Part shown: positions 401-63,226 of the stretch, piece after piece
Numbering within the stretch: position 1 is the stretch's first letter
How the letters are laid out: each line of letters opens with the position of its first letter
Assembly (NCBI GenBank): GCA_963921795.1
Contig: OY997643.1
Span: 15,530,960-15,594,959, forward strand
From: Nannobrachium achirus
Taxonomy: Eukaryota > Chordata > Actinopteri > Myctophiformes > Myctophidae
Reading direction: 5' to 3'
DNA: 64,000 bases
Notes under the pieces: model-generated
What the model was told of the DNA's origin: nothing
What the model saw: only the letters and a program-made list of their open reading frames with translations
The model's database searches: none
Position numbers and translations under genes: made by a program

Positions 401-432
401 CATTGTGAGCTTGTAGATCTGCTACTTTCATT
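401..432. repeat. Half copy of the AGATCTACAAGCTC palindrome
   Basis: The sequence TGTGAGCTTGTAGATCTGCT and a following ACTTTC match the right arm of the palindrome that recurs across the window. The left arm is absent or decayed. Confidence 0.7.
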
Positions 433-704
433 TACAAAAAATAGTGTTTATTTGTCATAGTCGAGGCAAAAGTTTTAAAATAATTGCGAATCTTGCGATA
501 TTGATTTGTTCATACACCATCGCCCAGCCCTGGTGTGCTACACACAGGGCACAGGCACATCACGAGTGCATGCATGTGAAGCTGTTGTTACTATTCCTTT
601 GGCGTCCCAAGTGACTCATCTGTGCTAAGCAAAGGTGACTTTGGTGGTTGTGGGCTGGCACGGGACATACTGACCCCCCACCACCACCAGCGTTAGATAG
701 AGAA

Positions 705-980
705 CAGGGTGACCATATTTTTCAAAATCCCAAACTGGGACCCATAATGACTTAAATGGGAAAACCACCCATTTTCAATATTGATTATGTACCTTAGAGG
801 GGTTGTGTGGAAATAAAAAAAAAGTTCCCCCCTTCTGTGTTGTCTAGAACTGGAGGAAGCAGTGACGTATACACTCTGCTGATGCTGATTGGTCGGAGAA
901 TCTGGCTCATGGCTGAGACAGATTTTAGTTTGCGAGTCACGGCTGCAAATCAAATATAAAAGCAAAGCCTGTTTTTTTCA
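705..980. mobile_element. hAT-like element, one end recognisable
   Basis: The stretch begins CAGGGTGACCATATTTT, the form of a hAT terminal inverted repeat. A matching right end was not found, so the right limit is approximate and the copy may be truncated. Confidence 0.35.
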
Positions 981-1256
981 TATATCTGTGTTAGAAAAGA
1001 GGTTGACGTGTTCCCCAGCCCTGCAGTTTAGATTCCACGAAGCACCAACAACATAATAACCAACGCAAAACATCTATTGCCTCGAGTTGCAATAAACAAC
1101 GGCCATCCGTTATTTTATATAGATCTTTATATGGATCTTCTCAGTGAGATGTCTCCTGTCTGTATTTGTAACTGCTTGTGTAGAATGGGGGATGAATCTC
1201 TGTCGTGTACAGGTATGTGTTTGTTCTGGCAGTCTACTGATATACAGTGACCTAAT

Positions 1257-1518
1257 ATATCGTCGTTGTCGGGTGGAAACCTTGTATGTCCAAAACCGTT
1301 CGTTTTGCATTTATCATTTTAATGATTCAAACTAGTGAAAACAGCCGATCTACAAGCACACAACGCCTCGCACCGCGAGGCGTTGTGTGCTTGTAGATCT
1401 GCTGTTTTCACTACTTTTGTGCGACGGCCTTGTACAATGAAGCAGGGCTTTACTTTGCGAAAGAACGTACAAATTGAGACTTGGAGATACGAGGTTTCCA
1501 CCCCGACAACGACGATAT
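1257..1518. mobile_element. Family A MITE with central palindrome
   Basis: The inverted ends read ATATCGTCGTTGTCGGG and CCCGACAACGACGATAT, followed inward by TGGAAACCTT-like bases. The centre (about 1333-1413) is a near-perfect hairpin with arm core GATCTACAAGCACACAACGCC. Five further copies share these ends (10264, 25047, 48173, 56563, 61897), some inverted. All copies begin and end with ATAT, so a target duplication cannot be told apart from the inverted repeat, and the superfamily is not clear. Confidence 0.8.
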
Positions 1519-1650
1519 GTACAAACAGACAAGGCCAGATGTAGGAGCTTAGCTCAAACGTTTTTACCATTATCATGATCATTAGTGAGGGCCAATTATA
1601 TGAAGGTCTGAAAATTGGCGAAGATGTCCTTTGAACACGAAATCAAAAAT

Positions 1651-1702
1651 AGAGAAAATAGCCAGTCTGCAAGCTCACAAGGCATTTTCTCTAGATCTGA
1701 CT
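1651..1702. repeat. Diverged copy of the palindrome
   Basis: GAAAATAGCCAGTCTGCAAG is followed by CTCACAAGGC and then by TTTTCTCTAGATCTG. This is the palindrome with several substitutions and a disturbed right arm. Confidence 0.5.
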
Positions 1703-2621
1703 TTTCCTTTTTGTTTTGTTTTCATCAGTATGGGGGGGGACAGTTATTTTACCACTTAGCACACCTAAGTGACCGCACCGTGCAACAGCACCGAACATGA
1801 TGAAAGTCTGCGAGAAGCACTCAAAAACAAAGACGTTATTATTATAACTCTGGACCAATTTAGCAAGTGAATATTGAAAAGCAGTAGCCTGACACTCAGC
1901 CTGAATTGACATTTCGTTTCACTCCATTATTCAGTCTGAACGTGCTTTCATCCACAGCAGTTTCTGGGATGGGCGTTGCCAAAGAGGCAGTCTTCTGTGA
2001 TTGGTTCACCGCCTGACCAATCACAACAGTAGCAAAGCAGATGACGTAGTTGTTATATGGCTGGCTAGTGGCTAGCCTGTTGCTTGCTACTTGCTAACCA
2101 AAGAAACAGGCAGAATAGGAGCACTACGAATTAGTAAACCAAACACAACAAAACATGTCTGCTACTGATGTTTCATAGCGAGATCGATACGACCGCATGT
2201 TACCGCGACGGGCGACGCCATGTTTATGTTTGGGAATGTGTGGTACGGTCCGGCGGCGGCGCTGGGCTATTTGGAATCGCACATGACTTCTGGGAAAACC
2301 CCACCCACGCTGCTCACAAGCTCCGACGTCGTCGAGTTGAAGCGACGCTGATTCGCCGTACGGATTTCCAAACGAGGAAACCCTCTTCAATGAGAGCACT
2401 TCAGGACCCCTGAATCGCCGAAACAACATTTTAACGGGGTGTGGCTAGCGATTCAGGGTCTGTAACCAGGCTAGAGAAGCAGTACATTTGAGTGTTTTAG
2501 AGGTATTTGTCTAACCCTAACCCCCACCCAGCTTCAGGGAGGGGGGAGTCCATCAGCAAAAGTAGTTAATAATACAGCATCAAAATCATTTTAATCACTT
2601 TATCCATTTCTATGTTGGATA

Positions 2622-2700
2622 TTCAAAAATAGCAGATCTACAAGCTCCAAGCGTGTTACTTTGTAGCCACGCTGTGAGCTTGTACATGTGATGTTTTTGA
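2622..2700. repeat. Free-standing copy of the palindrome, E-like loop
   Basis: AAAAATAGCAGATCTACAAG starts the left arm; the right arm is CTGTGAGCTTGTACATGTGA with mismatches, around a loop containing GCGTGTTACTTTGTAGCCACGC. No transposon ends were recognised around it. Confidence 0.7.
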
Positions 2701-2752
2701 GAGGCGTTGCCCTAGCAGACAAACAGATGAGAGAGTTATAACAATGTCCTAC

Positions 2753-4070: not shown

Positions 4071-4681
<611 letters not shown>

Positions 4682-6154: not shown

Positions 6155-6574
6155 CGGGGTTCCCACACATTTTTACCAATGAATTTCCAAAACCTTTGCA
6201 AACCTTTTCCAGAATATTTAACCCAATTTCCAGGACTATATAACAATAATTCAGCGCAATAACATGTCGCTTACTCCTATGTGCAATGCCCAAAGGCAGG
6301 CAGTGAAGAAAAATGTATGCGTGCACGCTGCGAACAGACCATGGCGTGCACAACGGACACGCACATGCCCACGTCAAAAGGTAAGAAAATTGTGGCAGGG
6401 AACCCTCATGTAAATTTATGGTGGCAGTAAACACAATAACGAAAAACAATGTATAGCTATTCTTTTTCAGGACCTTCCGAGACCCTTGATCAATTCCAAA
6501 ACTTTTCCAGTACTGGAAAAATATTTTTCTAATTTCAAAATATTTCCAGGAATTTCATGACCATGGGAAACCTG
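6155..6574. mobile_element. hAT-like element flanked by a 16-bp direct repeat
   Basis: The ends are GGGGTTCCCACACATTTTTA and CCATGGGAAACCTG, similar to hAT termini of the CAGGGTTCCCAC type. The 16 bases ACATCTGTACATTTGA occur immediately before (6139-6154) and after (6575-6590). hAT insertion normally duplicates 8 bp, so either the target was already repeated or the duplication is atypical. Internal phrases such as CCAAAACTTTTCCAG are consistent with a short non-autonomous copy. Confidence 0.7.
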
Positions 6575-6651
6575 ACATCTGTACATTTGAAAATGTTTGG
6601 AAAAAAACCTCTAAATAAAAGTTTGTTAAATGTTGAATGCGGCCAACGTAC

Positions 6652-6862
6652 TCTATGAAGTAGACCTCCCCGCTCTCTGTGTAGGCCATCTCCCAGCTGT
6701 CAGGCAGGGGGCCCTGGGGGTCCTCTTCGGGGTGAGGGTGTGTCTGCTGTGTGCTCTCCGTGGTGGCAGATGGCGAGGGGCTGGTCCCGCTGTAGGACGG
6801 GGCGCTCTGGCGGACGGGGGCGAAGGGGTGCACCGAGTGCTGAAGCTCTTCACTAGAGTCTC
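6652..6862 (-). CDS. magi1: MAGI1 exon: linker and first half of WW domain 1
   Basis: The exon runs from acceptor CCCCTGCAG to donor GTACGT on the minus strand. It encodes a Ser/Pro/Thr-rich linker beginning GDSSEELQHS and ending GPLPDSWEMAYTESGEVYFI, with the last codon completed to Asp by the next exon. The Trp of DSWEM is the first signature Trp of the WW domain and the YFIDHN junction matches the family. The length is 211 bp, and the phases fit both neighbours. The linker differs from mammalian MAGI1 in sequence but keeps its position between the NSSFT segment and WW1. Upstream of the acceptor is a (CAAT)n run. A decayed copy of its 3' end lies about 600 bases downstream. Confidence 0.94.
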
Positions 6863-6886
6863 CTGCAGGGGTGGGGGGAGATGGAT

Positions 6887-6887
6887 G

Positions 6888-7622: not shown

Positions 7623-8047
7623 CAGGGGTCTTCAATGTTTTCAGGCCAAGGACCCCTTAGTTGAGAAAGAGATGAACCCCAGGGACCCCCCACAACCTGT
7701 TCCTAGATTCCATATAGTTTCATCGTTTGACAGCACAATCATTGTATTCGGTATTGTCAATGTCAATTTGTGTTTTCGTATCTAACTACTTAAACCGTCA
7801 ATACTTAATTTGACATTTCACTTTGTACTTAGTCTGCTCTTTTTCCCCTCTACGCCAAACCTCTTTGCCGAAAATAGACGATCTACAAGCTCACACCGCC
7901 TTGTAGCGCGAGGCGGTGTGAGCTTGTAGATCTGCTATTTTTGGCTAAAGCTCTCAGGATATGGACGCTAGGATTCAAGTGGTTAACATAAAAAAGGAGA
8001 AAAAGGTTTCTATCACACAAAGATTTGGAGGACCCCCTGTAGTAACT
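7623..8047. mobile_element. Family B hAT-like MITE, right end shortened
   Basis: The left end is CAGGGGTCTTCAATGTTTTC followed by AGGCCAAGGACCCCTTAG. The centre (about 7871-7944) is a full palindrome with arm core GATCTACAAGCTCACACCGCC. The right part keeps GATTTGGAGGACCCCCTG but lacks the terminal GTTGAAGACCCCTG seen at 38522. CTGTACAG precedes (7615-7622) and follows (8048-8055) as an 8-bp duplication, within a longer, diverged flanking repeat containing ACTTCCCAG. Confidence 0.75.
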
Positions 8048-8160
8048 CTGTACAGTACTTCCCAGTACGCTCCTCTTCTATAGTTTTTGGGCCAGTAATA
8101 AAAGTAGGCCAGCCGTACAGAGTGTTGCTAACATCCTGAACTGCTTCCTAATGTAGGTTT

Positions 8161-9500: not shown

Positions 9501-9999
9501 CAGGGGCGTCGCACCAAATTCTGGGCCCTGGGTACAAGGATTCACTGCGGGCCCCTGAATGTTCTTCATAGGGGAGGGGGTTTAACCCATTTAAGACTGG
9601 GAACGCGTTATTACGCCTTATTTTGTGCTTTAACTATAGAGGGTATGCACGTCCACTGGGACCCGCCCCCTAATCTAGACAGAGTGGCAAAACATTGAGC
9701 AGCAATGTTGGTGAGTTTAACTTTGTTTAATACAATTAGATAGGACTTCTGTTTGGATGTATGGGCTGTCAATGGCAGAAAGTAGTTTTTTGCCACTCAG
9801 TAGGCATTCCTACATAACTTCCAGCAACAGTGATGTCACGCGCATACCCTCTATAGCAGATATACAAGCTCGCAGCGTGAGCTTGTATATCTGCTATTTT
9901 TCAATAGCTAAAGTATTTAAAAGTTAAGGCCCCTCCAACTTGGGCCCTACTAACTCAGTCCCACCCCCCCCCCCCCCACCCCCCATTGTGACGCCCCTG
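9501..9999. mobile_element. Family F hAT-like element with nested elements
   Basis: The ends are CAGGGGCGTCGCACCAAATT and CCCCATTGTGACGCCCCTG. Inside is a TTAA-bounded segment (about 9582-9927) that carries a palindrome (9855-9907, GCAGATATACAAGCTCGCAG) and is itself interrupted by a separate MITE at 9639. No 8-bp duplication is visible at this copy, but the sister copy at 36869 has one. Confidence 0.7.
9639..9851. mobile_element. Short MITE with GAGGGTATGC ends
   Basis: The inverted ends are GAGGGTATGCACG and CGCGCATACCCTC. TATA flanks both sides (9635-9638 and 9852-9855), fitting a TA or TATA target, as in Tc1/mariner-like elements. It interrupts the segment next to the palindrome inside the family F element. 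Confidence 0.75.
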
Positions 10000-10180: not shown

Positions 10181-10263
10181 ACTGCTATCAACACATTGCA
10201 AATGCACATGCTGCTATCAAGGCTATGACTGCCAGCGACATCGTAAAAAAACAAGATCATTTC

Positions 10264-10531
10264 ATATCGTCGTCGTCGTCGGGTGGAAACCTCGTATCTC
10301 CAAGTTTCAAATTTGTACGTTCTTTCGCAAAGCAAAGCCCTGCTTCATCATACAAGGCCGTTGCACAAAAGTAGTGAAAACAGCAGATCTACAAGCACAC
10401 AACGCCTCGCACCGCGAGGCGTTGTGTGCTTGTAGATCGGCTGTTTTCACTAGTTTAAATCATTTTTAAAATGATAAATGCAAAACGAACAGTTTTGGAC
10501 ATACAAGGTTTTCATCACCCGACAACGATAT
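10264..10531. mobile_element. Family A MITE with central palindrome
   Basis: Ends ATATCGTCGTCGTCGTCGGG and CACCCGACAACGATAT. The palindrome spans about 10374-10452 with loop ACAACGCCTCGCACCGCGAG. Relative to 1257 it is in the opposite orientation. The left CGT triplets have expanded. Confidence 0.85.
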
Positions 10532-19280: not shown

Positions 19281-20057
19281 TGGAAGATATGTGATCCTGT
19301 TTTTATTGGTTACTGTAGTATTCTATATGTTCTTACGGCTAGCAGACAATTGTGGAAAGGAGAGACGAAGAAACACTCTATTCTAGGTCCTGGAGGATTG
19401 TCAGACATTCCGAGCTGATAACGGTGTCCGTATTAGTCTGTCTAAAGGTGAAGAACTGGAGCAGGAGCTGTACATTCAGGGAGCAAACGAATAGCTTCCC
19501 ATGAGAACCGAGTTTTGTTTTGGCGAGGGGTGAAGAAATGAGACATCAACAATAACTGTTTGTAGGTGGGAGGTGTGAGCTTGGGAGTATTCACTCAGCC
19601 CCTCCCGTGGCTACAAATCCACCCCACCGAAATCCTATGAACTGTGTCTCCCAAATGTCACATCGTTGACCAGCTACCAGCCCCCTCCCAGACAAAATGA
19701 AGATAAGAACAGACATTTGACTGCCAGACAGACTGAGATGGGAGGCCATATCTTTTTCCTTCGTTGCAGGACACTTGTGTGCTCGCCGCGCTGGACATAT
19801 GGATTACTGATCAGTATTTGTATCTCGGTCCTCCGTGTTATCTGTGTGTCAGTCATAGCTAATATAGGCTCGTAGATAATGATAATTGCATAAGCTGTAA
19901 TACTTTTTTATTTTTATTTAGTTAATAAATATTGTCTTTCAACAAACAGACGTCCTTTGTGCAACAAGCGTCATTCTTGAGCATAGCTCTGGCTTCGCCT
20001 TCTGGTGGTAAATTCCACGGCGCTAAGTAGTTTATACATTTGAATAGAAGCCTTTCA
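19281..20057 (+). repeat. 3' LTR
   Basis: 777 bp, matching the 5' LTR wherever I compared the two. It is followed by the GTAT duplication and the right part of the interrupted hAT element. Confidence 0.93.
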
Positions 20058-20417
20058 GTATATTACATTTAATGTGATTCGGTTCCACAGATAGATATTG
20101 TGAAAATAGTAGATCTACATGCTCACAACGCCTCGTACTGCAAGGCGTTGTGAGCATGTAGATCGGCTATTTTCAAAATGTTCTACTTGCTTACTTAATT
20201 TGACAGTTTGGCCAGTTTGGTCTTGAAAGTCCTTAGATTGTCACGTTATAAATGTGCAGATACCCTGTATACACTTATAGGCTACTGTGTGTTGGCTTGT
20301 TTACCGTTGAGGGAGAAAAAAATGACATTAAGCTAATCATCTGGGGACCCCACAAAATAATTTGGGGACCCCAAATTTGAGAACCACTGCCCTATATGAT
20401 CACACTACAGCACCTAT

Positions 20418-22129: not shown

Positions 22130-22530
22130 TAGGGCTGTCACGATATGACATTTTACATGACGATTAATTGTCACTCAAATAATTGGCGATTAACGATTTA
22201 ATTGTGTATTTGTCGTTGATAATTAAATTTCTGTTTGGCTTTTAGGCTTTGAAGTTGCATATGGTAGATATGAGTCATAACCTAAATATACAAATACATT
22301 ACTGACATATTTGACAACTTACTACTTAAAAAATAACATTGATAGTAGAAATAGCCGATCTACAAGCTCACAACGCGTCACATCGCGACGCGTTGTGAGC
22401 TTGTAGATCTGCTATTTCCACTATTTCTGACATTTTTCAACATTCACGATTATGACGATTATGACAAAATAATTGCGATAATGTCAAATAATCACGATTA
22501 GACGATTATGTAATACTTGTGACAGCCCTA
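22130..22530. mobile_element. Family H hAT element with central palindrome
   Basis: Ends TAGGGCTGTCACGATATGAC and TGTGACAGCCCTA, typical of hAT elements of the TAGGGCTG type. A perfect 8-bp duplication AATATACA flanks it (22122-22129, 22531-22538). The full palindrome (22343-22431) has arm core GATCTACAAGCTCACAACGC and a CGTCACATCGCGACG loop. No coding capacity remains. Confidence 0.93.
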
Positions 22531-23427: not shown

Positions 23428-23492
23428 AGAATCTACAAGCTGCAGAGCAGCACAAAGTGACACGCTGTGAGCTTGTACATCTGCTATGTTTG
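23428..23492. repeat. Diverged copy of the palindrome
   Basis: CAGAATCTACAAGCTGCAGA starts a weak left arm; CGCTGTGAGCTTGTACATCT and GCTATGTTTG form the right arm. Confidence 0.6.
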
Positions 23493-23584
23493 ATCAGCCA
23501 CTGTATAAATAAAGTGGTTGAAATGATTGTGAAGCTATATTCATTAATTTTAGTGGGGACCACCTGGACACCTGGGAACCACTG

Positions 23585-24107: not shown

Positions 24108-25046
24108 GATGGCACCAGTGCAGAAAAAAATACTTTTTTTGCCACACGCCAACACACACAAGAGTTTTAATATCAGATTCAACCTAGGCTAAAACGGCTC
24201 TATATTATGTGTGAATGGACAAGGTGATACTGAGGTGAATTTACATTGAGCAGGTGGGCGTGTTTGAGGACTCTCCTGACTGTCCCTGAGGGTTGTTTGG
24301 GCAGAGAGATAAGATCAGTGAAAAACCAGTTCATTCATTGACATTTGAGTTGGAAATATTCACCCGTCACACTTCTGTGACATTGTTAAAACACAAACAA
24401 GACCTCTTTACTGCCGTGGTAATGTAGTGACAGCACCATGACGTTCCCTGTACACTTGTCTGCGCATTGATTGATTGATTGATTGCTTGATTGATTGAAT
24501 ACTTCATTAACAGGCGTATTAACAGTACAGGTAATACAGTCAAATGTTACGCTAAAAGGATAACACAAAAAGCCTGCCTCAGGGGGCTTGTTTGAGACCA
24601 ATGTTATTTTTCCAATTTTGATTAAAAAGAAAAGTATGATGTACAGTAGCTGGTATGGTAAGTCTACATTAGGCCTACTACGGAAAGCAATGACGCGTCA
24701 CGTGTGTTTTGCATGGGTGGCATCAATGGGAGACTGCAATGTTATGCGGAAGGCTGGTCAGTGGAAAATCACATTTTCCACACAGCTGATGTGTGTGTGA
24801 CACGACACATGGCCTTATCAAATGGGTCTATTTGGCCTTTATATCATGGTTGTTGGCCAGAAACCTTTTATCTCCACATAGTAACCTTTTGAGTTTTTTT
24901 CATAAATTACGGCCCTACCTGATGACACTACAGCAGGGTTCCCCGATAGGCGGCCCACGGGCCATTTGTGGCCCGCGGGGGGCTACTGTCTGGCCCCCAC
25001 CAACCCCAGTAATAATGGTGGTATAAGAGCAGCAACAACACTAGTA

Positions 25047-25256
25047 TATCGTCATTGTTGGGTGGAAACCTTGTATCTCAAAATGTGTACGTTCTTTCAC
25101 AAAGTAAAGCCCTGCTTCATCATACGAGGCCGTCGCACAAAAGTAGTGAAAACAGCAGATCTACAAGCACACAACGAGTTTAAATCATTTTTTAAATGAT
25201 AAATGCAAAACGAACGGTTTTGGACATACAAGATTTTCACCCGACAACGACGATAT
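25047..25256. mobile_element. Family A MITE lacking the right palindrome arm
   Basis: Ends ATATCGTCATTGTTGGG and CACCCGACAACGACGATAT. The palindrome stops after GATCTACAAGCACACAACG and continues directly with AGTTTAAATC, so the loop and whole right arm are missing while both flanks are intact. Confidence 0.8.
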
Positions 25257-28585: not shown

Positions 28586-28722
28586 AAGCCAAAAATAGCC
28601 GATCTAAAAGCTCACAACACCTCACACTGCGAGGCGCTGTGAGCTTGTAGATCGGCTATTTTTGGCTAAGTACATCTCTCTCTGGGGGGTCCTTGGCCTG
28701 AAGAAATTGAAGACCCCTGGTT
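28586..28722. mobile_element. Family B hAT-like fragment with palindrome
   Basis: The palindrome (28586-28669, arm core GATCTAAAAGCTCACAAC) continues into GGGGTCCTTGGCCTGAAGAA and ATTGAAGACCCCTGG, a family B end in inverted orientation. The other half of the element is missing. Confidence 0.7.
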
Positions 28723-29576: not shown

Positions 29577-29959
29577 CAGTGGTTCTCAACCTGTGGGTCG
29601 GGTTTTGAGGGGGTCCCCAGATGATTAACTTAACGTGCAACATTGTTTTCTCACTCAACAGTAAACAAACCAACATAAAGTTTGAGTGTACAGAGGGTAG
29701 CTGCACATTTCTAAAGTAACAATATAAGGACCTTTTAATGCCTCTAAAATCACAAATTAAACATTGGTCAAATTGTCAAATATTAGAGGCAGAAATTAAC
29801 GCGAGGCATTGTGAGCATGTAGATCTGATATTTTCACAATAGAACCGTGTTATACAAAATGTAATTCCTCAACTCCTAGTGCTCGTCAGGGTGGGGGGGT
29901 CCACAGTTAAAATATGATTATTTTGGGGGTCGCGGCCTGAAAAGGTTGAGAACCACTGT
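29577..29959. mobile_element. Family C hAT element, complete, with half palindrome
   Basis: Ends CAGTGGTTCTCAACCTGTGG and GGTTGAGAACCACTG. A perfect 8-bp duplication TACTACAG (29569-29576, 29960-29967) flanks it. The palindrome is reduced to its right half (29800-29838, GCGAGGCATTGTGAGCATGT). Confidence 0.92.
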
Positions 29960-33503: not shown

Positions 33504-33665
33504 TGATATCGGGTGGAAAACCTCATGGGTCCCAAACCGTTACTTTTCAGGATTGAAGTTCCAAAACAGAGGCTCTGCAAGCTTGTCGGTTCCCGCCGCG
33601 TTTCAAGCTTGCAGATCTGTTACTTTGGATACTTTTGAGTGACGCTGTAGTATGATCTAGTAGGG
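33504..33665. mobile_element. Family G element, partial, with palindrome
   Basis: GATATCGGGTGGAAAACCTC leads to TTACTTTTCAGGATTGAAGT, a diverged palindrome (33562-33628, CTCTGCAAGCTTGTCGG and CAAGCTTGCAGATCTG) and TTTTGAGTGACGCTGTAGTA. The right end is replaced by a family B element. Confidence 0.6.
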
Positions 33666-34060
33666 CCGGGATCTTCAACGTTTTCAGGCCAAGGACCCCT
33701 TAGCTGAGAGAGAGATGAAGCAGGGACCCCCACAAGTTGTTCATAGATTCCATACAGTTTCATTGTTTGACAGCACGATCATCAGTGTATTTTGGATTCA
33801 TGTCAGTTTGTGTTTTCAGATATTTAACCACTTGAGCCGTCATTACCTAACAAACTTGACCTTTTACTATGTACTTAGTCTGCTCTTTTTCCCCTCTTAA
33901 CCAAACCTTGTTGCCGAAAATAGCAGATCTACAAGCTTATAGATCAGCTACTGTAGATCAGCTATTTTTGAAGTGGTAAATATAAAAAAGAAAAAAAGGT
34001 TCCGATCACTCAAAAATTTGGAGGACCCCCTGTAGTAACTCTGAGGCCCCCCTGTCGGAA
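33666..34060. mobile_element. Family B hAT-like element, diverged ends
   Basis: CTTCAACGTTTTCAGGCCAA begins the recognisable part and GGAGGACCCCCTGTAGTAAC ends it. The palindrome (33914-33970) has lost its loop and part of both arms. Confidence 0.7.
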
Positions 34061-36868: not shown

Positions 36869-37534
36869 CAGGGGCGTCACAAGGGGGTGGGGGGTGGGGG
36901 GAGTGGGACTGAGTTACTAGAGCCCTTAATTATTTTATACTTTAGCTATTGAAAAATAGCAGATACAAGCCCACAGTGCGGCACTGAGTGCCTCACTGCG
37001 AGCTTGTAGATCTGCAATATTTGAAAAGTCGTGAATATTTCTGCAAATCTTTGAATATATATATATGTTTTAAGCAAACATTTGTAACACAAATTTTGCT
37101 TCGGGGGGGGGGGGGGGGGGGGGGGGTCCCTGGAACTAAATATTTTGAGATGGGGGTCCGTGGCCAAATACATATCATTTTGGGGTCCTTCACAAGAAAA
37201 GGGTTGAGCACCACTGACATAGAAACATAGGTTTTTCAAAAAAACCTTTGAAGGATTCAGAAGACATTTATAGAATGGTGTCAATAATGTGCACATATTT
37301 TTTTCAGGATTTTTCAAAAAATAGCAGATCTACAAGCTCGCAGCGTGGCACTCGGTGCCACGCTGTGAGCTTGTAGATCTGCTATTTTTCAATAGTTAAC
37401 GCACAAAATAATGCGTAATAATGCATTCCCAGTCTAAATAGGTTAAACCCCCTCCTCCCCCTATGAAGAACATTCATAGGGGGCCCACAGTGAATCCTTG
37501 TACCCAGGGCCCAGAATTTGGTGCGACACCCCTG
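36869..37534. mobile_element. Family F hAT element containing D and E segments
   Basis: Ends CAGGGGCGTCACAAGGGGGT and GGTGCGACACCCCTG. A perfect 8-bp duplication GTTGGATG (36861-36868, 37535-37542). Inside are a palindrome (36946-37024), an inverted family D hAT end finishing GGGTTGAGCACCACTG, a G run, and a second full palindrome (37312-37395, GCAGATCTACAAGCTCGCAG). Compared with 9501-9999, the D segment is an extra insertion beside the palindrome. Confidence 0.88.
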
Positions 37535-38063: not shown

Positions 38064-38522
38064 CAGGGGTCTTCAAGGTTTTCAGGCCAAGGACCCCTTA
38101 GTTGAGAGATAGATGAAGCAGGGACCCCCCACAACCCATAGATACCATATAGTTTCATCATTTGACAGCACAATCATCAGTGTATTTTGGATTAATGTCA
38201 ATGTGTGTTTTCAGATACTTAACAATTTGAACCGCCAATACTTAATACACTTGACCTTTCACTGTGTACTTCTTTTTCTCCTCTACACCAAAGCTCTTTG
38301 CCGAAAATAGCCGATCTACAAGCTCACAACGCCTCGCAGCGCGAGGCGTTGTGAGCTTGTAGATCTGCTGTTTTTGGCTAAAGTTCTCAGAATATGGACA
38401 ATAGGGTTCAAGTGGTTAACAGGAGAAAATAAAAGCTTTCTATCACTCAAAGATTTGGAGGACCCCCTGTAGTAGCTCTGAGGACCCCCTAATGGTCCCG
38501 GACACCCTGTTGAAGACCCCTG
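38064..38522. mobile_element. Family B hAT element, complete, with full palindrome
   Basis: Ends CAGGGGTCTTCAAGGTTTTC and CTGTTGAAGACCCCTG. A perfect 8-bp duplication GTATAGGT (38056-38063, 38523-38530). The palindrome (38300-38383) has arm core GATCTACAAGCTCACAACGC with loop CTCGCAGCGCGAG. This is the reference copy for the family in this window. Confidence 0.95.
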
Positions 38523-38645: not shown

Positions 38646-39085
38646 TAGGGATGGGACGATACGTGATATTATCGTTTATCGTGATTAAAAAAAAACACTC
38701 ACAATAATCGTATCGTGGAGATTTAATTGAACGTGATATCGTCCTCCGTCATGCGCTGGGATCAATTCACTTTTTATTTGCCACGCTGCATATCCGGTAT
38801 CATTTAAACCCTCTATAATTGGTAAAGGTACTTATAATATACATACTTGATAGTTGATAGTCTTTTTTTTTCACTCTATCAAATGTCTTTGCAAAAAAAA
38901 AAAACAGCCGATCTACAAGCTCACAATGCATCACAACGCGCCGCGTTGTGAGCTTGTAGATCTGTTATTTTTTGGGCAATTGTTTTGGCCCCAGGATAAT
39001 AGATTTAGCTTATCGCGATAATATCGTAAATCACGATTTCTTTTGTCACAGTAATCGTGATATGACATTTTCATATTAGTAGAGG
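38646..39085. mobile_element. Family I hAT-like element (TAGGGATGGGACGATAC), right end missing
   Basis: The left end TAGGGATGGGACGATACGTG and subterminal TATCGTGATT motifs in both orientations mark a hAT element of the TAGGG type. A full palindrome (38893-38974, CGATCTACAAGCTCACAATG) lies in the centre. The right terminus is not found before the next element starts near 39113. Confidence 0.7.
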
Positions 39086-45977: not shown

Positions 45978-46366
45978 TAGGGCTGTCACAATTATTACAT
46001 AATCGTCGAATCGCAATTATTTGACATAATCGCGATTATCTAACATAATCGTCATAATCGTTCTCGTTGAAAAATTTTCATATGTTTTTTTTTTCCAACG
46101 TAAAAAATTGTGGAAATAGCAGATCTACAAGCTCACAACACGTTGCATCGCGACGCGTTGTGAGCTTGTAGATCAGCTATTTCCACTATCAATGTTATTT
46201 TTTAAGTGTAAAGTTGTCAAATATGACAGTAATTTCTTTGTATATTTAGGTTATGTGTCATATCTACCATGTGCAACTTCAAAGCCTAAAAGCCAAACAG
46301 AAATGTAATCTGTTATCTGAGTGACAATTAATCGTCATGTAAAATGTCATAATCGTGACAGCCCTA
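45978..46366. mobile_element. Family H hAT element with full palindrome
   Basis: Ends TAGGGCTGTCACAATTATTA and ATCGTGACAGCCCTA. A perfect 8-bp duplication CTGCTTTA (45970-45977, 46367-46374). The palindrome (46110-46190) lies between GTGGAAATAGC and GCTATTTCCAC. It is in the opposite orientation to 22130. Confidence 0.93.
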
Positions 46367-47989: not shown

Positions 47990-48535
47990 CAGGGGTTTTC
48001 AAAGTGGGTGACGGGGCACCCTGGGGTGCCGTGACGGCAGTCCAGGGGTGCCGCGAGATCATTTGAAAAAATATTTATTATCATTTTAAACTTGAAGTAC
48101 AAAGTTATTTTCAGTCAGTTCTAAACAAAATGGCTATTATCTCAACGTTTTCCTCACAACATAATCACTAAAATATCGTCAAGTCGGGCAGAAACCTTGT
48201 ATCTCCAAGTTTAAAATGTGTACGTCTTTTGGTAAAGCAAAGCCCTGCTTCATCATACAAGACTGTCGCACAAAACTAGTGAAAACAGCCGATCTACAAG
48301 CACACGACGCCTCGCAATGCGGGGCGTTGTGTGCTTGTAGATCTGCTGTTTTCACTAGTTTCGTTTATTTTATAGATGATAAATACAAAACGAACGTTTT
48401 TGGACATACAAGGTTTCCAACCGACGATATGCTATAAATATAAGGTGCTGGGAGTGAAAATTATAATGTAGGGGTGCCATGGATTAAAAAAATATTTATG
48501 GGGTGCCCTGAGACAAAAAAGTTTGGGAAGCCCTG
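47990..48535. mobile_element. Family U hAT element carrying a family A MITE
   Basis: Ends CAGGGGTTTTCAAAGTGGGT and GTTTGGGAAGCCCTG. A family A MITE (48173-48430, ends ATATCGTC and GACGATAT, with palindrome 48280-48360) lies in it at the same place as in the copy at 61791. About 64 bases of flank (GGTGAACTACTCCTCTATAA and around) occur on both sides (47926-47989, 48538-48603), far longer than an 8-bp duplication. Confidence 0.85.
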
Positions 48536-49107: not shown

Positions 49108-49348
49108 TATGAATATCCAACCTACCTTTCCAGGATATTCAGACCTAGGCCTACTTTTCAGGCCAGGTGATGCTACATTTATTTTTTAGCTGGGGACCCC
49201 CACCAACTATCCTTGGCTCAGAGGACAGATGGGCAAGAACAGATGTGGCCACAGCAACATCATACGCACTCAAAACATCACAGCACATAATGTTGTGTAC
49301 CTGGCTCACCTGCCACTGCGGATGTTGCTATGTTGGAGGCACAATAGG

Positions 49349-49652
49349 CAGTGGTTCTCAAATTGGGTCCCTAAATTATTTTGTGGGGTCCCTAGATGAT
49401 TAGCTTAATGTAATTCTTTTCTTCACTCAATGGTAAATAAACCAACACACATTATAATTGTATACATGGTATCTGCTCATTTCTAACGTGACAATTTGAT
49501 TGCAACCTTTATTTATTCTCGAAAAGAACAATTTAAGGACTTTCAAGACTGTTAGAATACCAAACTGTCAAATATGAAGTAAGCAAGAGGCAAACAATGT
49601 GAAAATAGCAGATCTACATGCTCACAACGCCTCGCAATGCGAGGCGTTTTCA
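49349..49652. mobile_element. Family C hAT element, right part missing
   Basis: It begins CAGTGGTTCTCAAATTGGGT and keeps GATGATTAGCTTAATG. The palindrome (49599-49652, AGATCTACATGCTCACAACG) breaks off after GAGGCG into unrelated TTTTCATTCC. Confidence 0.75.
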
Positions 49653-52163: not shown

Positions 52164-52745
52164 TCCATTCCTCCCCTCCCCTCTGTTTTCACGGAGACAG
52201 CGTCTCCTCTCCACCTCTCTCCCACTATAAAACTTTCTTCACCTAAATACACTCAAATCTAAACGAATTCTACTGCCATCTCTAGGCTATCAATCAACTA
52301 TCTAAACTCTAACTCTAACTATAAATATCCTATATTCAAATCTCAACCGAGCCGATCCTCTTTTTTTTTTTTTTTCCCTTTTTCCTCTCTCTGCTGGCTT
52401 GTGTTTCTGCATTGTGTCTCCCAAACTGCTAGAGTGGTTGTTGTTGCCTCTCTCTCAATCTGTTATTTTGGATTGTCTGATAACATGTGTTTCAATGCAG
52501 TTTTTTGACCTTTTTTCTTCATTCACGTGAATGACCTGGTTCCCTTTGATGTTTCCCTACTGTATTAAGTCACAGGCAGCGGGAGAGCACCATCAACTGT
52601 AAAACAATGAAAAGACGATAGCACGTTCATAAACGTGTTGGGCGGTAGATAGCTGGGTTTAATGGAACGTTTATAAACGTGCTGGGCGGCAGATGAGTTA
52701 AAGCATTAAATAATTCAAAATGAGCCTAGACCATGTAATGCATAA

Positions 52746-52960
52746 GGTCTCTGTTGGGTGGAAACCATATTATAAAACTGTTAATTTTCAGGATTCAAAT
52801 TCATAAATAGCAAGAGTAGCAGCAAGCTCACAAGCTCGAAACGCATGATACTTTTGTGTGACGCTGTAGTATGATTAAGCAGTGCAGTTTTATGAAAAAA
52901 GAAAAAAAGGAAAAAGTTACAATCTAGAGATAAGAGGTTTCTGCCTGACAGCGACCATAT
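52746..52960. mobile_element. Family G element with decayed palindrome
   Basis: GGTCTCTGTTGGGTGGAAAC and AGAGGTTTCTGCCTGACAGC are its inverted ends. The internal order TTAATTTTCAGGATTCAAAT, AGCAAGCTCACAAGCTCGAA, TGTGACGCTGTAGTATGATT matches other family G copies. Confidence 0.65.
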
Positions 52961-52996: not shown

Positions 52997-53519
52997 TTAA
53001 AACCCATTCAGAACGGGTACACATTATTGTGTATCATCTTTTTATGCTTTAACTATTGAAAAATAGCAGATATACAAGCTCACAGCGAGCTTGTAGATCT
53101 GCTATTTTTGAAAAATCGTGAAAATTTGAATTTTGACCCGAAGTGTCTTTCGAATCCTTCTAAGGTTTTTTGAAAAACCTATGTTTCTATGTCAGCAAAC
53201 TGGCCAGCCATCGTCAAAGAAAAGGTCCTTTTCACTTAAGTGGAGCTCAGTTAGTCTGTTATTGAGAGACTACTATGTCAGTGGTTCTCAAACCTTTTCA
53301 TGTGAAGGACCCCCAAACTGATATTTATTTGGCCACGGACCCCCATCTCAAAATATATAGTTCCAGGGAAGAGCAAAATATGAGTTACAAACGTTTGCTT
53401 TAAAAATACATATACCGGTATTCAAAGATTTGCACACATTTTCACGACTTTTTCAAAAATAGCAGATCTACAAGCTCACTGGTTAAAGCATTCAATAATT
53501 CTAGGCCTAAATGGGTTAA
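52997..53519. mobile_element. TTAA-bounded family E element interrupted by a family D hAT
   Basis: TTAA stands at 52997-53000 and 53516-53519. The outer ends contain AACCCATTCAGAACGGGTAC and TAGGCCTAAATGGGTTAA. The palindrome (53052-53110) is followed by TATGTTTCTATGTCAGC and, near 53280, CAGTGGTTCTCAAACCTTTT with D-type interior; a second left arm (53451-53480) precedes the right end. Confidence 0.75.
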
Positions 53520-56562: not shown

Positions 56563-56827
56563 ATATCGTCACTGTCAGGCAGAAACCTTGTATCTCCATA
56601 GTTTCAAATTTGTACTTTTTTCGCAAAGTAAAGCCCTGCTTCACCATACAAGGCTGTTGCACAAAAGTAGTGAAAACAGGCGATCTACAAGCACACAACG
56701 CCTCGCGGTGCGAGGCGTTGTGTGCTTGTAGATCGGCTGTTTTCACTAGTTTAAATCATTTTTAAAATGATAAATACAAAACAAACGGTTTTGGACAAAC
56801 AAGGTTTCCACCAGACAACGACGATAT
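56563..56827. mobile_element. Family A MITE with full palindrome
   Basis: Ends ATATCGTCACTGTCAGGC and CAGACAACGACGATAT. The palindrome spans about 56668-56748 with arm core GATCTACAAGCACACAACGC. Same orientation as 10264. Confidence 0.88.
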
Positions 56828-57489
56828 GTTCTGTATATAAAAGGAAGACAACTTCACTACAGACCAAACACAGAACATGGAGACGACCTGCCTCAGCATA
56901 TCCGCGGGGCGCGCAGATCAGTGCCACGAGTGAGAAGTAGGCCACATGGTAAATGTGTTTGGCAACGATTCATTATAATAATTGTTCTATAAATAGGCCC
57001 CGGCTATTCTTATCTGGCTTGCATTGCTGGCATCCGGGTGGCTTTTAGGACAGTGGTCCCTCAAGCCTTTTCTGGATCAGGGAGACATCTTGAACGGCAC
57101 TTAACACGGCAGTGTTAAGTGGTCAGATGTATGGGTGGTCCACGTGCATTTTCAGAGCACGTTTATTTGGATGATTAATCGATCGATTGTGTACCGGACT
57201 GGACCAATGGTAATGATAATACCAGTCTAAAACCCAAAGTACAAAAAAACAATATGTACACAATACTAATAATTATCACCAATACCAATAAGACGCCTAA
57301 TGGTGAAAAGTGACCTCGCCCTTAAGCAACATGTCTTGGCCATCGGGCCAGTGATGTATATCGGACCAGTTAAACATATATGGAGACCCCTGATACCCAT
57401 ATATGGAGATCCATGTATATGAAGATATGTGAGACCCCAAACCAGCTTACGCAGTTATTCGTTATGTGAAAGTCCTATGACATCTGACA

Positions 57490-57957: not shown

Positions 57958-58290
57958 AAAAACCACTGTCTTAGTACAGCAGTTATTTGTGCCATCATTC
58001 TGAACTAGTTCTCGGGGGCCCCGACACAAAACTCCAGAAATAAAGTCAACGCTCACTTTAAATAGTCGTCAATCCGTCAATGCCACTTCTGTGCATGTTT
58101 ATAGGGCACGTTTCATCTCTCACAGTTGGGCTAAGACGCAGATGCACAGATGCAACGTGGAGTTAAACCTCAGAACTAGGTGTGTTTGTGCCACGTTGGA
58201 GAGGAGGCTGTTATCTGCAAGGCTCCATTAAATGTTTCATGAGCCTGACCCAGTGGATAACACTGGAGGCCCACTCCATCTTATCAACTA

Positions 58291-58482
58291 GCACAAGTAG
58301 CAGATCTGCAAGCTCAAAGCGTGCCGCTTCGCACCTCGTTTCCAGCTCGCGGATCTGCTACTTTAGATGCTTTTGTGTGACGCTGTAAGATGATCAAGTG
58401 GGGTGTTAATTTACGAGAGAAAAAAAACACATAGCGTTAAAATATGTAAATGAGAGGTTTCTGCCCAACAGCAACGATATAT
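58291..58482. mobile_element. Family G element with palindrome
   Basis: The left side begins at AAGTAGCAGATCTGCAAGCT; the right side holds GCTTTTGTGTGACGCTGTAA and the terminal GAGGTTTCTGCCCAACAGCA then ACGATAT. The palindrome (about 58297-58365) is diverged in the right arm. Confidence 0.65.
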
Positions 58483-58587: not shown

Positions 58588-58845
58588 TAGCCTGGCGTTG
58601 CTCATACTAATTCCTCACTGCGTATGGGATATTTGTCTGGACTCACAGGCAGAATTTTCATTTCCAAGGGGTGGGTTCAAAAAATGGCTCTGGACATGAT
58701 TGGTTAGACCAGACCAATGCTGGGCCCCGATTGGTTTCCCCACATTTTGGGGGAGAGGAAATGGATTCACAATTGAGCAGGGCCAGACCCATATTCACCA
58801 AGGGCAAGTTTTTTTGCCCAGGCGGATTGGTCTGGTTCCAGGCTA
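58588..58845. mobile_element. Family N MITE, 9-bp duplication
   Basis: Ends TAGCCTGGCGTTGCTCATAC and TGGTCTGGTTCCAGGCTA. Flanks CACCCACAC (58579-58587) and CACCCACAG (58846-58854) match at 8 of 9. Same orientation and nearly the same sequence as 48814. Confidence 0.9.
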
Positions 58846-58879
58846 CACCCACAGCGCCTTATTTAGAAACAAGAGAAAA

Positions 58880-60052: not shown

Positions 60053-60167
60053 TTGATATGATATATGATATGATATATAGTACTTTATTGTCAGCTCACA
60101 CTGAAATTTGTCTTGCGACACAGCAGCCATGTATGCGAAAACATATATACAAACATTATACTTTAAT

Positions 60168-60455
60168 CCTGAAAAATACAGTAGATCTACATGCTTACAA
60201 CGCCACACATGTGGGGCGTTGTGAGCATGTAGATCGGCTATTTTCACAATTTCTGCCTCTTATATTTGACAATTTGGCCAATGTTTGTCATTTTAGAGGT
60301 ATTAAAAAGTCCTTAAATTGTCATTTTAGAAACATGCAGATACCCTCTATACACTTGAACTTTATGTTGGTTTGTTTACTGTTAAGCGAGAAAACAATGT
60401 TGCACATTAAGTTAATCATCTGGGGTGGTCCCGACCCACAGGTTGAGAACCACTG
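60168..60455. mobile_element. Family C hAT element, left end missing
   Basis: The palindrome (60173-60246, AGATCTACATGCTTACAACG) leads into ATTTGACAATTTGGCCAATG, GTTAATCATCTGGGG and the end CACAGGTTGAGAACCACTG. It matches the right half of 29577-29959 in content. Confidence 0.8.
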
Positions 60456-60827: not shown

Positions 60828-61075
60828 TAGCCTGGCGTTGCTCATACTAATTCCTCACTGCGTATCGGATATTAGTCTGGAGTCGAGAGTCGTTTTCATT
60901 TCCAAGGGGTGGGTTAAAAAAAATGGCTCTGGACACGATTGGTTAGACCAGACCAATGCTGGGCCCTGATTGGTTCCCCCAAATTTTGGGGGAGAGGAAA
61001 TGGATTCACAATTGAGACCCATATTCGCCAAGAGCAAGTCTTTTTGCCTAGGCGGATTGGTCTGGTTCCAGGCTA
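60828..61075. mobile_element. Family N MITE, perfect 9-bp duplication
   Basis: Ends TAGCCTGGCGTTGCTCATAC and TGGTCTGGTTCCAGGCTA. The duplication is GAATCACGC (60819-60827, 61076-61084). About 10 bp shorter than 58588 through a deletion after CACAATTGAG. Confidence 0.93.
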
Positions 61076-61114
61076 GAATCACGCAGCCTCCGAACCCAGA
61101 AATCGCTGCTCAGA

Positions 61115-61278
61115 TTAACCCATTTAGAACGGTTACATATTATTGTGTAACATTATTTTATGTTTTAACTGTTGAAAAATAGCAGATATACAAGCTCACA
61201 GCGTGGCACCGACAGCTTGTATATCTGCTATTTTTCAATAGCTAAAGCATTCAATAAGTCTAGGCCTAAATGGGCTAA
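61115..61278. mobile_element. Family E MITE, TTAA target, palindrome centre
   Basis: Left end TTAACCCATTTAGAACGG, right end TAGGCCTAAATGGG followed by CTAA. The palindrome (61172-61242, GCAGATATACAAGCTCACAG) fills most of the 164 bp. TTAA with CCC/GGG ends fits a piggyBac-like element. Confidence 0.8.
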
Positions 61279-61790
61279 GATTCAGTTCATTGTCACTTAG
61301 ATGAACTGTTTAGGTACATACATGTGGGGAAAAAAAACGTACGCTTCCGGTTAACTGCCCAGCCCCTATCGGAAAGCATTGCATTAAACTGCCCTATAAT
61401 AACGTATAGTGTAACCATCTTTCCTCGCTAAATTATACATAAGCACTTTGACTCTACATGTGATGGACTGTTTTTTTTAATCTTATGGCGGTCAGCGTCG
61501 TTTGTGCTCATAACTGGACACTGATGTTGGCAGTGCAGACGGGTCGTTAAAGCGTGTCGTAGACAGTTAGGTGCTCACCAGAGATGCATCACTTTTACGG
61601 AGTGTTTCCCGGTGCATTCATGTGCACATTATTACCGTGTCGACTGACCTCGCCTTACCCTCTGTCCATCCTGCTGTTTGTTTACATGGCTAATGGTCCT
61701 GTCACTGCCTGGCTGGCTGGCTGGATGGATGGCTGACTGACTGACTGCTTGACCGACCGACCGACTGACTGTTTGTCTGGCTTTCTACAG

Positions 61791-62334
61791 CAGGGGTTCC
61801 CAAACCTTTTTTGTCTCAGGGCACCCCATAAATATTTTTTTAATCCGAGGCACCCCTACATTATAATTTTCACTCCCAGCACCTTATATTTATAGCATAT
61901 CGCCGTTGTCGGGTGGAAACCTTGTATGTCCAAAACCGTTCGTTTTGTATTTATCATCTATAAAATGTACTAAACTAGTGAAAACAGCTGATCTACAAGC
62001 ACACAACGCCTCGCAACGCAAGGCGTTGTGTGCTTGTAGATCAGCTGTTTTCACTAGTTTTGTGCGACAGTCTTGTATGATGAAGCAGGGCTTTGCTTTA
62101 CCAAAAGACGTACACATTTGAAACTTGGAGATACAAGGTTACTGCCCGACAGTGACGATATCTTAGTGATTATGTTGCGAGGAAAACGTTGAGATAATAG
62201 CCATTTTGGTAAGAACTGACTGAAAATAACTTTGTACTTCCAAGTTTAAAATGATACTAAATATATTTTCAAGTGTCCAAATAAATTCCAAATATTATCA
62301 AATGATCTCGCGGCACCCACTTTGAAAACCCCTG
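61791..62334. mobile_element. Family U hAT element carrying a family A MITE
   Basis: Ends CAGGGGTTCCCAAACCTTTT and CACTTTGAAAACCCCTG. A perfect 8-bp duplication TTCTACAG (61783-61790, 62335-62342). The family A MITE (61897-62161) with full palindrome (about 61975-62058) sits at the same internal place as in 47990-48535, in the opposite overall orientation. This shows that the MITE was inside the hAT element before it spread. Confidence 0.95.
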
Positions 62335-62339
62335 TTCTA

Positions 62340-62410
62340 CAGTGTTTCCCCTACATGAATTTCACTGTGGCGGCCCCGCCACACCTTGTTTTAGCCTGCC
62401 ACAGTTTGAT
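62340..62410. mobile_element. hAT-like end abutting the previous duplication
   Basis: CAGTGTTTCCCCTACATGAA and GTGGCGGCCCCGCCACACC are typical of one end of a fish hAT family. The right end was not found. Confidence 0.45.
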
Positions 62411-63186
62411 TTGTTAGGAAAATATGTTTTACTGTGCCCAGGGGGTGTGCACGTGTGTGTGCACAGTATCTAAGGGATTGAATGTAGGAGTCATCAGAAG
62501 TAATATTGCAGTGCCCGTTGCGCAGATCTTAATGCCCATATATGGTGTTCCATGGTGGAGTGCCCGTTGGGCAGATCTTTATGCCCATACATGGTGTGTA
62601 GTGTAGTGTAGTGTGTCCAGGCCAGTCTATGACGTCAGAGTATGGCGTCAGAGTAGCATGCAGACAGACGGTTACCATGGCGCAGAAAACTGTGTAGCAT
62701 CAGTGATGTCACATGCAGATGGTCAGACGGACGGACAGACATTCGCTAAATTAATAGTTCGATCTGAGGCCCCTCGTGAGCTTTTAGGTGCGTCACACAC
62801 CGGCGTGTGACCCAGTATGATTTGGCCCACCCGTGTTCTCGTGCTCTCCTGGGTCTTAACTCCACAGGAGTGAAATAGCTCCCCCTGGGGTAACAGCTTT
62901 CTATGGGTCACAAAGGTGTCAGTAACGTAGGCCACCACGGCACAGGCTCGCTAGTCGTTAGAATGTGAGTTTTGTTTTATCGTCTTCAAGATGATTTAGA
63001 GTTCTTGAGCTACAGAAAACCTTAGAGGACAAATGACACAGACTTCACCGTGAACATGTGTAGTTCGTCCGTGCTACTTTTCTATGAGGTTAAAGTTCAG
63101 GTTTCTCAGCTGTTCAATAGGCATTGTTAATTAGACCACTTGTGGAAGCAGCAGCAGCCATACGCTGGTTGTAACTTGTAGCTGGA

Positions 63187-63226
63187 GCGATGCGACGCGT
63201 TGTGAGCTTGTAGATCGGCTATTTCT
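63187..63226. repeat. Half palindrome
   Basis: GCGATGCGACGCGTTGTGAG and CTTGTAGATCGGCTATTTCT form the right arm with family H loop; the left arm is missing. Confidence 0.7.

Follow-up and report, generated by a model that had tools for sequence, protein, structure and literature searches.

A palindromic core that seems to be handed between unrelated families of small cut-and-paste transposons in Nannobrachium achirus

The hairpin core and its hosts

The DNA analysed here (the window) is a 64-kb stretch of contig OY997643.1 of Nannobrachium achirus. It carries many copies of a palindromic core, some 75 bp long, that consists of arms AAAATAGC[C/A]GATCTACAAGCTC and an inner stretch. The core sequence AGATCTACAAGCTC has 7 exact matches on the forward strand and 9 on the reverse strand (38 and 36 with up to 3 mismatches), and the 16-mer GCAGATCTACAAGCTC was found 67 times with up to 3 mismatches, whereas 20 first-order Markov sequences gave 0.35 on average. 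A profile of the hairpin arm, as called for by a first-pass annotation of this DNA, collected 65 arms at 44 loci of the window (E ≤ 0.01) and none from the reversed window. The central observation of that annotation, one hairpin placed centrally in unrelated transposons, holds, with fewer host families than it claimed. The elements carrying the hairpin or parts of it are the following.

1257..1518, + strand: family A element, ends ATATCGTC/GACGATAT, complete hairpin 1337-1409
10263..10528, - strand: family A element, complete hairpin 10376-10448, loop in the opposite orientation to those at 1344 and 56679
25046..25256, - strand: family A element, one hairpin arm and loop deleted
56563..56830, - strand: family A element, complete hairpin 56672-56744
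47990..48535, + strand: composite H, hAT-type, left end CAGGGGTTTTCAA, nested A at about 48173-48425, hairpin 48281-48353, no clear target duplication
61791..62334, - strand: second copy of composite H, nested A 61897-62161, hairpin 61980-62052, target duplication CTGTAGAA
45538..45715 (right limit approximate), + strand: K element, older relative of A with the same left end, decayed hairpin
52742..52960, + strand: K element, both ends present, hairpin arms reduced to remnants
58240..58480 (left limit approximate), - strand: K element, hairpin 58295-58364 complete but mutated
22130..22530, + strand: family B, hAT-type, ends TAGGGCTG, target duplication AATATACA, hairpin 22349-22417
45978..46366, - strand: family B, hAT-type, target duplication CTGCTTTA, hairpin 46113-46182, loop nearer the reverse complement of the loop at 22354
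29577..29958, - strand: family C, hAT-type, ends CAGTGGTTCTCAACC, target duplication TACTACAG, partial hairpin with arm 29800-29835
20000..20389 (left limit approximate), + strand: family C, hairpin 20102-20174
60100..60455 (left limit approximate), + strand: family C, hairpin 60175-60245
49347..49650, - strand: family C, one hairpin arm partly lost, arm 49601-49635
38064..38522, + strand: family E, hAT-type, ends CAGGGGTCTTCAA, target duplication GTATAGGT, hairpin 38303-38374
7623..8060 (right limit approximate), + strand: family E, hairpin 7870-7941, both arms of which carry a matched change (A-to-C / T-to-G)
33661..34053 (limits approximate), + strand: family E, shortened and rearranged hairpin from 33916
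28592..28719, + strand: hairpin 28592-28662 with one E-type end (CAGGGGTCTTCAA on the minus strand at 28707-28719), other end not found
61115..61278, + strand: small family F, TTAACCCATTTAG...CTAAATGGGCTAA, one hairpin 61176-61234
52997..53519, + strand: large family F, TTAA at both ends, tip-deleted hairpin 53060-53108 and half hairpin 53456-53479 with a CAGTGGTTCTCAAAC stretch between
36869..37534, - strand: composite P, hAT-like, CAGGGGCGTC-type ends, target duplication GTTGGATG, large-F interior with hairpins 36953-37015 and 37318-37388
9501..9999, + strand: second copy of P, F-type hairpin 9853-9900 with deleted tip, no clear target duplication
2560..2697, + strand: group G, arm and hairpin 2626-2697, element ends not delimited
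23457..23584, - strand: group G, hairpin arm and flank up to a CAGTGGTTCCCAGG end
38646..39080, + strand: probable seventh host, left end TAGGGATGGGACGA, right end not found, complete hairpin 38901-38971

Six groups of hosts with unrelated flanks can be distinguished, i.e. A (with its older relatives K), B, C, E, F and G. A seventh host, around the hairpin at 38907, is probable, and H and P are composites that carry A and F, respectively, each in two copies. These figures replace the "at least nine unrelated families" announced earlier; the ends that had been named (ATATCGTC, CAGGGGTCTTCAA, CAGTGGTTCTCAACC, TAGGGCTG and TTAACCC) are all present. A comparison of 18 host sequences detected no similarity between A/K, B, C, E, F and G outside the core above the shuffled maximum of 29.7 bits, except between A and K (up to 57.5 bits). 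B, C and E are hAT-type elements according to their ends and 8-bp target duplications (AATATACA and CTGCTTTA for B, TACTACAG for C, GTATAGGT for E), and F has TTAA at both ends. An 8-bp duplication also flanks one of the two copies of H (CTGTAGAA) and one of the two copies of P (GTTGGATG). The host elements B, C, E, F, H and P are MITEs, being short and non-coding and having terminal inverted repeats and a target duplication. Family A copies read ATATCG...CGATAT, the duplicated part being inseparable from the element end. In hosts with both ends known, the core lies near the middle (fractions of about 0.44-0.63, calculated by hand from the coordinates).

Visual inspection of about 30 assigned host copies showed at least a trace of the hairpin in each. 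Since the hairpin was the main means of finding these families, the number of copies without it may be underestimated. Another 12 or so copies, partial or decayed (at 406, 1661, 3187, 8286, 17844, 20426, 26830, 31695, 34491, 35837, 51832 and 63204) were left out of the host assignment, and a search for 8-bp duplications around copies without known ends yielded no host ends for them. A hAT-type element devoid of the core (18804-19018), whose ends are C-like with 3 mismatches, was considered as an empty relative of C and dropped. Its interior aligns clearly above shuffles with none of the nine host sequences compared (the E element at 7623 ties with the shuffle maximum) and it was therefore not counted as an empty site. 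Neither was a K end-fragment (34956-35020) that stops at the hairpin edge. A tRNA scan of the window returned nothing, and exons resembling MAGI point to vertebrate DNA.

The shared unit has fairly sharp edges. Across 67 arms, with family copies weighted equally (no down-weighting), the positional information amounts to 1.0-1.8 bits from -1 to -6, 0.54 at -7, 0.26 at -8 and 0.01-0.46 beyond. The TA at the unit boundary is conserved and so are AAAA/TTTT past it. In most copies of A, B, C and E, the flanks directly outside the unit are inverted-symmetric and pairing runs about 6 bases past it in family-specific sequence, so that to call the flanks unrelated would be too simple at the very edge. 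The earlier statement that the families share almost nothing outside the palindrome thus holds above shuffle level (A and K excepted) and has to be qualified for this symmetric pairing.

Structure and variation of the hairpin

Folding of six copies as single-stranded DNA gave z-scores of -13.4 to -16.1 for five of them and -4.5 for an old K copy. Stem cells are paired in 89.2% of cases (29-42% in slid controls) and in 15 of the 33 stem pairs both sides have changed. Conservation of the outer arm is one of sequence, that of the inner arm mainly one of pairing: between type-2 and other hairpins, 17-21 of the outer 22 bases are alike and only 7-8 of the inner 12 (hand-drawn consensus), which suggests some sequence constraint. 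The motif GATCTACAAGC is nearly invariant between hosts. The hand-drawn consensus arms of the families differ by Watson-Crick swaps without G-U pairs, although G-U cells do occur in single copies. A retained mismatch at columns 24/79 links hairpins of unrelated hosts; these columns fail to pair in 10 of the 13 type-2 hairpins (A, B, C, E and 38907), and each of the six type-1/K hairpins that have letters there, the K hairpin scored among them, is paired at this position.

Loops and arm variants are specific to the family, as described in the first-pass annotation. In a few cases the loops are inverted between copies: the loop of the A copy at 10383 is the exact reverse complement of those at 1344 and 56679, and the match is approximate in B, where the loop at 46119 differs at 2 of 13 bases from the reverse complement of the loop at 22354 and at 5 of 13 from its direct form (hand count). 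Arm homogenisation and spacer inversion are reported consequences of template switching at inverted repeats (PMC8604942, PMC8794818), and signs of both are present in the hairpins of the window. The partner arms of one copy show no clear excess of similarity over arms taken from different copies (identities out of 36 of 34.6 versus 34.55 in A, 33 versus 33 in B and 32.5 versus 31.5 in E), so that template switching is hardly visible in single copies. The retained mismatch resists homogenisation and counts against upkeep by template switching.

A and K share core and ends. The arms of A have a mean identity of 0.81 to those of B, C and E versus 0.60 to those of K, which might suggest that they are closer to the arms of unrelated hosts than to those of their relatives. 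This incongruence is suggestive only because, in an arm tree based on 38 columns with 27 of 39 inner branches open, the AU test for A+K is not significant (p 0.108).

Possible routes of spread

Three features of the window bear on the spread of the core, i.e. unrelated hosts that share it near their centre, nested carriers present in two copies each, and one- and two-hairpin forms of F. Small F has the left and right arms of large F with a single hairpin between them, and coexists with two-hairpin elements. The core seems to be handed between unrelated families of small, non-autonomous cut-and-paste transposons. The account that we favour, tentatively, is that of a palindromic core of single origin, the arms of which are kept complementary at least partly by template switching and which spreads by nesting and repair capture. 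The following steps can be proposed. The core, which would not transpose on its own, would be copied as a passenger each time its host family is copied. A carrier may become nested in another transposon and then be amplified with it, a situation seen twice (A in H and F in P). DNA synthesis may switch template between the inverted arms, which would copy changes from one arm to the other and could invert the loop. Lastly, a transposon might lose its middle and have its two ends rejoined by repair synthesis, through which a bare core would enter a new family; the palindrome would present the same arm sequence to both broken ends during rejoining. The nesting seen does not explain the bare cores of B, C and E, as they have no A- or F-like flanks and no carrier inverted repeat was detected within 110 bases of the bare cores (B, C, E and 38907). 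This search has low power for short ends: it missed those of the F element at 61182 and would thus miss other carriers with short ends.

The first-pass annotation had left only two choices, a mobile module or a selected structure; the nesting and amplification of whole carriers adds a third. It is possible, though unlikely, that the core is a selected RNA hairpin or protein-binding DNA site that aids host multiplication or escape from silencing, the families that gained it having expanded. The near-invariance of GATCTACAAGC, the far better conservation of the outer arm, the pairing kept through changes on both sides and the position near the host middle would all fit. However, the window contains no match to an Rfam family at its gathering score (a search of 38200-38460 with E up to 1 gave one miRNA match, taken as chance, at 20.6 bits versus a gathering score of 160 bits), Watson-Crick swaps without G-U between consensus arms suit DNA template switching equally well, and repeats without the core multiplied too (e.g. 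48814-49085/58588-58846/60828-61075). Common descent of the palindrome in its unrelated hosts is supported. A strongly selected structure, as put forward in the first-pass annotation, is not required, since template switching also gives arm homogenisation and spacer inversion.

The self-mobile module of the same annotation would be a tiny palindromic transposon with ends GCNGATCTACAAGC that is flanked by TA, jumps by itself and prefers other transposons. Its common edges with a boundary TA, its conserved, end-like outer arm and the bare cores in unrelated hosts with no carrier detected speak for it. Direct edge matches of at least 3 bases are also commoner within copies (9 of 19) than in cross-family pairs (58 of 304), the longest match ranging over the 19 copies from 0 to 6 bases (6 in A, 5 in the F copy at 53066 and 4 in that at 37324). 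Yet five of the nine matches are A copies with the self-complementary flank ACTAGT or part of it, and symmetric flanks produce such matches. No duplication of fixed length recurs but the conserved TA, itself possibly a duplication, and AAAA/TTTT beyond it are conserved as well. Within the window, none of the 13 complete type-2 copies examined is solitary (for 38907 the host is only probable, and for 28598 a single host end was found), and the copies outside the host assignment are partial or decayed. Without a convincing target duplication or a solitary type-2 copy, self-mobility is unsupported in this window and appears slightly less likely than a selected core. Descent of all hosts from one palindromic element whose ends were replaced is improbable. 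It agrees with the core and ends shared by A and K and with the traces of hairpin in all assigned copies, the first of two signs that the annotation had attached to an ancestral core; the second, common ancestry of the hosts, is not seen outside the hairpin, where hosts have no other sequence in common above shuffle level, and ends and target duplications differ in kind (8-bp hAT, TTAA, ATATCG). A Helitron terminal hairpin, a parvovirus-like terminal repeat and a site-specific recombinase site were considered and dropped on general grounds.

Comparison with known elements

Human MADE1 and fish Angel are short, nearly perfect palindromic MITEs that multiplied in vertebrate genomes. Each of them forms a complete element that has ends and target duplications of its own, unlike the palindrome described here, which is the internal core of other elements.

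Another parallel is the V domain, a conserved domain of SINEs that is also found in the MITE MER6 (PMC6887750). Like this domain, the core is a conserved internal domain of non-autonomous elements that was taken up and amplified by DNA transposons, and here too the same central domain occurs with unrelated flanks in several element families. However, the V domain stems from a SINE body and no palindrome is described for it in the part of PMC6887750 cited here, whereas the core is a near-perfect palindrome common to several DNA transposon families. A bolder and doubtful extension would be that a module of about 75 bp parasitises DNA transposons, passing bare between families across superfamilies and helping its recipients to become high-copy MITEs; such a bare-hairpin module, just as doubtful, would be for class II elements what exchanged conserved domains are for SINEs.

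No match to the core was found in a collection of viral contigs; a collection of prokaryotic genomes gave none and then two in MAG contigs, judged to be due to chance after the DNA was read. Full-text literature searches with the arm words returned, among the matches listed, none on transposons by title. The core is likewise unreported among the matches listed for MITE palindromes, Angel, fish internal palindromes, Tol2 internal repeats, abortive gap repair and composite elements; as these searches covered few subscription journals and not Repbase, this absence is weak evidence.

The core bears on how MITE families arise and on why some short elements reach explosive copy numbers. Recurring as it does in the middle of unrelated families, it offers a natural marker of the rejoining through which a MITE would be born, and it allows one to ask whether hairpins raise amplification. 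The signs of arm homogenisation, multi-base compensatory change and spacer inversion resemble template-switch mutations at inverted repeats. PMC8604942 and PMC8794818 describe these for yeast genes with short inverted repeats and for the stems of RNA genes, whereas the palindrome of the window is shared by transposon families. Compensatory changes in such hairpins need not imply an RNA function.

Abundance of the hairpin and its host transposons

The palindromic core, a hairpin of about 75 bp that lies centrally in small non-autonomous transposons, is real and unusual. Its 16-base arm GCAGATCTACAAGCTC (one hairpin side) occurs 67 times in the window with at most 3 mismatches, against 0.35 expected from 20 Markov-1 sequences, and a 14-base core has 7+9 exact matches. 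At E ≤ 0.01, an arm profile trained on 16 hairpins detects 65 arms spread over 44 loci, training copies being counted among these arms, and none in the reversed window, which bears out the claim of the first-pass annotation that the hairpin is repeated throughout. When six copies are folded as single-stranded DNA, five give z-scores of -13.4 to -16.1 and an old copy, from group K, gives -4.5.

The same annotation placed the core in at least nine unrelated families. When 18 host sequences are compared with the core masked and the shuffled maximum (29.7 bits) as threshold, the only between-group match exceeding it is that of A with K (up to 57.5 bits); a B–K match (28.1 bits) and a match between C and E ends (26.6 bits) both lie inside the shuffled range. 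As A–K is the sole such match, this comparison supports six unrelated host groups (A, B, C, E, F and G) and a probable seventh at 38646-39080 (hairpin 38907), not nine. The K elements are, judged by sequence, old relatives of A (86% identity across the first 50 bases, 67% across 112 bases further in). Delimited hosts are as follows.

Host elements with defined ends
22130-22530 and 45978-46366: family B, inverted ends, 8-bp target duplications AATATACA and CTGCTTTA
29577-29958: family C, inverted ends, 8-bp target duplication TACTACAG
38064-38522: family E, inverted ends, 8-bp target duplication GTATAGGT
61115-61278: small F, ends TTAACCC...CTAA

From their ends and 8-bp duplications, we take B, C and E to be hAT-type. 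Family A has the ends ATATCG...CGATAT, from which its target duplication is not separable, and a large F copy has TTAA at both ends. One arm is common to the G copies, whose ends are mostly undefined.

Edges, arms and pairing of the core

Outside the GC, positions -1 to -6 (AAAATA) hold 1.0-1.8 bits, position -7 0.54, position -8 0.26 and those beyond 0.01-0.46, as computed over 67 arms with family copies unweighted. Consensus arms drawn by hand for seven groups share 17-22 of the outer 22 bases in every pairwise comparison. Agreement over the inner 12 bases is 11-12 among the type-2 hairpins of A, B, C and E, 10 between F and G (type 1), 7-8 when type 2 is set against the other groups and 5-6 for K against type 1.

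Among 20 aligned hairpins, chosen as complete or near-complete, 89.2% of 647 stem cells are paired (29-42% in slid controls). Changes on both sides affect 15 of 33 pairs and are carried by 46 cells, a count as high as which is seen in 0 of 500 shuffles. Columns 24/79 are mismatched in 10 of the 19 sequences with letters there, namely 10/13 type-2 and 0/6 type-1 or K hairpins, the latter set holding a single K. Through this common mismatch, A is linked with the hairpins that hAT-type elements carry. The arms of A have an average identity of 0.81 with those of each of the families B, C and E, and of 0.60 with those of K; the arm tree, which is short and mostly open, agrees in direction (AU p 0.108 for A+K). 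The core is apparently of single origin. Conserved domains common to non-autonomous elements are a known phenomenon (PMC6887750), and the core in six unrelated MITE-like groups is a new form of such sharing.

Entry into new families and turnover

The edges bear on the proposal that the core is itself a mobile module. The longest direct match there spans 0-6 bases in 19 copies, with no recurring length but the conserved TA. Matches of at least 3 bases are found in 9/19 copies, against 58/304 cross-family pairs, and five of these nine are A copies, whose flank is all or part of the self-complementary ACTAGT. Across the six bases that follow outward, inverted symmetry holds at 4-6 positions in all A, B, C and E copies but one (11 of 12; the exception, a C copy, has 1) and at 2-5 in F, G and 38907 copies, the cross-family mean being 1.75. 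Furthermore, no solitary core appears among the 13 complete type-2 copies examined in the window, counting 38907 with its probable host and 28598 with a host that shows a single end; about 12 copies without assigned host are partial or decayed. Large F has two hairpins; small F combines the left and right arms of large F with a single hairpin between them. The junction in a shortened element can thus fall on a hairpin, the direction of change not being proven. Taken together, the edge matches, the lack of a solitary core among the complete copies examined and the small F joint lead us to prefer, over self-transposition, a process in which the core would be captured while transposon ends rejoin.

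Nesting followed by amplification is one route into new families that is seen, as A lies within H and F within P in two copies each. The two H copies, which are 92.7% identical over 494 columns, carry the same A element at an identical position, one with the target duplication CTGTAGAA; the P copies lie at 9501-9999 and 36869-37534, the latter with the duplication GTTGGATG. At 9480-10080, P was apparently inserted into a K element, seemingly placing one hairpin carrier within another. Nested entry would leave carrier flanks beside the hairpin; none were detected around those of B, C, E and 38907, although the search for carrier ends missed those of F61182 and so is insensitive to short-ended carriers.

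Several hairpins bear signs of turnover at the DNA level. The A10383 loop is the exact reverse complement of the A1344 loop, with the mismatch not moved, and two B loops differ at 2/13 positions as reverse complements versus 5/13 directly (hand count). In E7877, an A-to-C change on one arm is matched by a T-to-G change on the other, F hairpins carry A/C, C/C or A/A at one site depending on the copy, and the tip is gone at 9856, 35377, 53066 and 61182. Template switching at inverted repeats yields arm homogenization and spacer inversion (PMC8604942, PMC8794818). Against this process, partner arms within a copy show no clear excess likeness over arms of different copies in A (34.6 versus 34.55 of 36), B (33 versus 33) and E (32.5 versus 31.5); therefore, either template switching would operate chiefly in source elements or pairing is partly maintained by selection.

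Genomic setting and other repeats

The window looks like a repeat-rich part of an animal gene, probably a vertebrate one. A WW domain is encoded in two halves on the minus strand (4349-4681 and 6558-6926), both scoring below Pfam's cut-off when taken singly. MAGI2 and MAGI1 are among their solved relatives; MAGI2 ranks top for one half and second for the other, where a YAP1/dendrin entry precedes it. Just three reading frames from start to stop are 150 codons or longer. Several frames are open in a minisatellite array (21022-21600), which yields a repetitive 244-aa ORF.

A 778-bp pair (12270-13047 and 19280-20057), 100% identical and spaced by about 7 kb, either was duplicated very recently or is an artifact of assembly. 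A core-free repeat family occupies 48808-49085, 58588-58846 and 60828-61075; its copy at 48808 (TAGCCTGG end) sits inserted next to a hairpin arm, with CTGCTATTG flanking both sides. A hairpin-free hAT-type element at 18804-19018 (ends CAGTCCTTCTCAATC / ATTTGAGAAACACTG, flanks CTCTAGAG / CTCTAGTA) has no clear kinship with the compared host sequences. Further long palindromes at 63548-63707 (71-nt arms, 96% complementary) and 4071-4357 (124-nt arms, 85%) contain no arm-profile match at E ≤ 0.01. Long inverted repeats at 30360-30518 and 31978-32132, 93% alike with about 1.5 kb between them, may mark the termini of a larger transposon.
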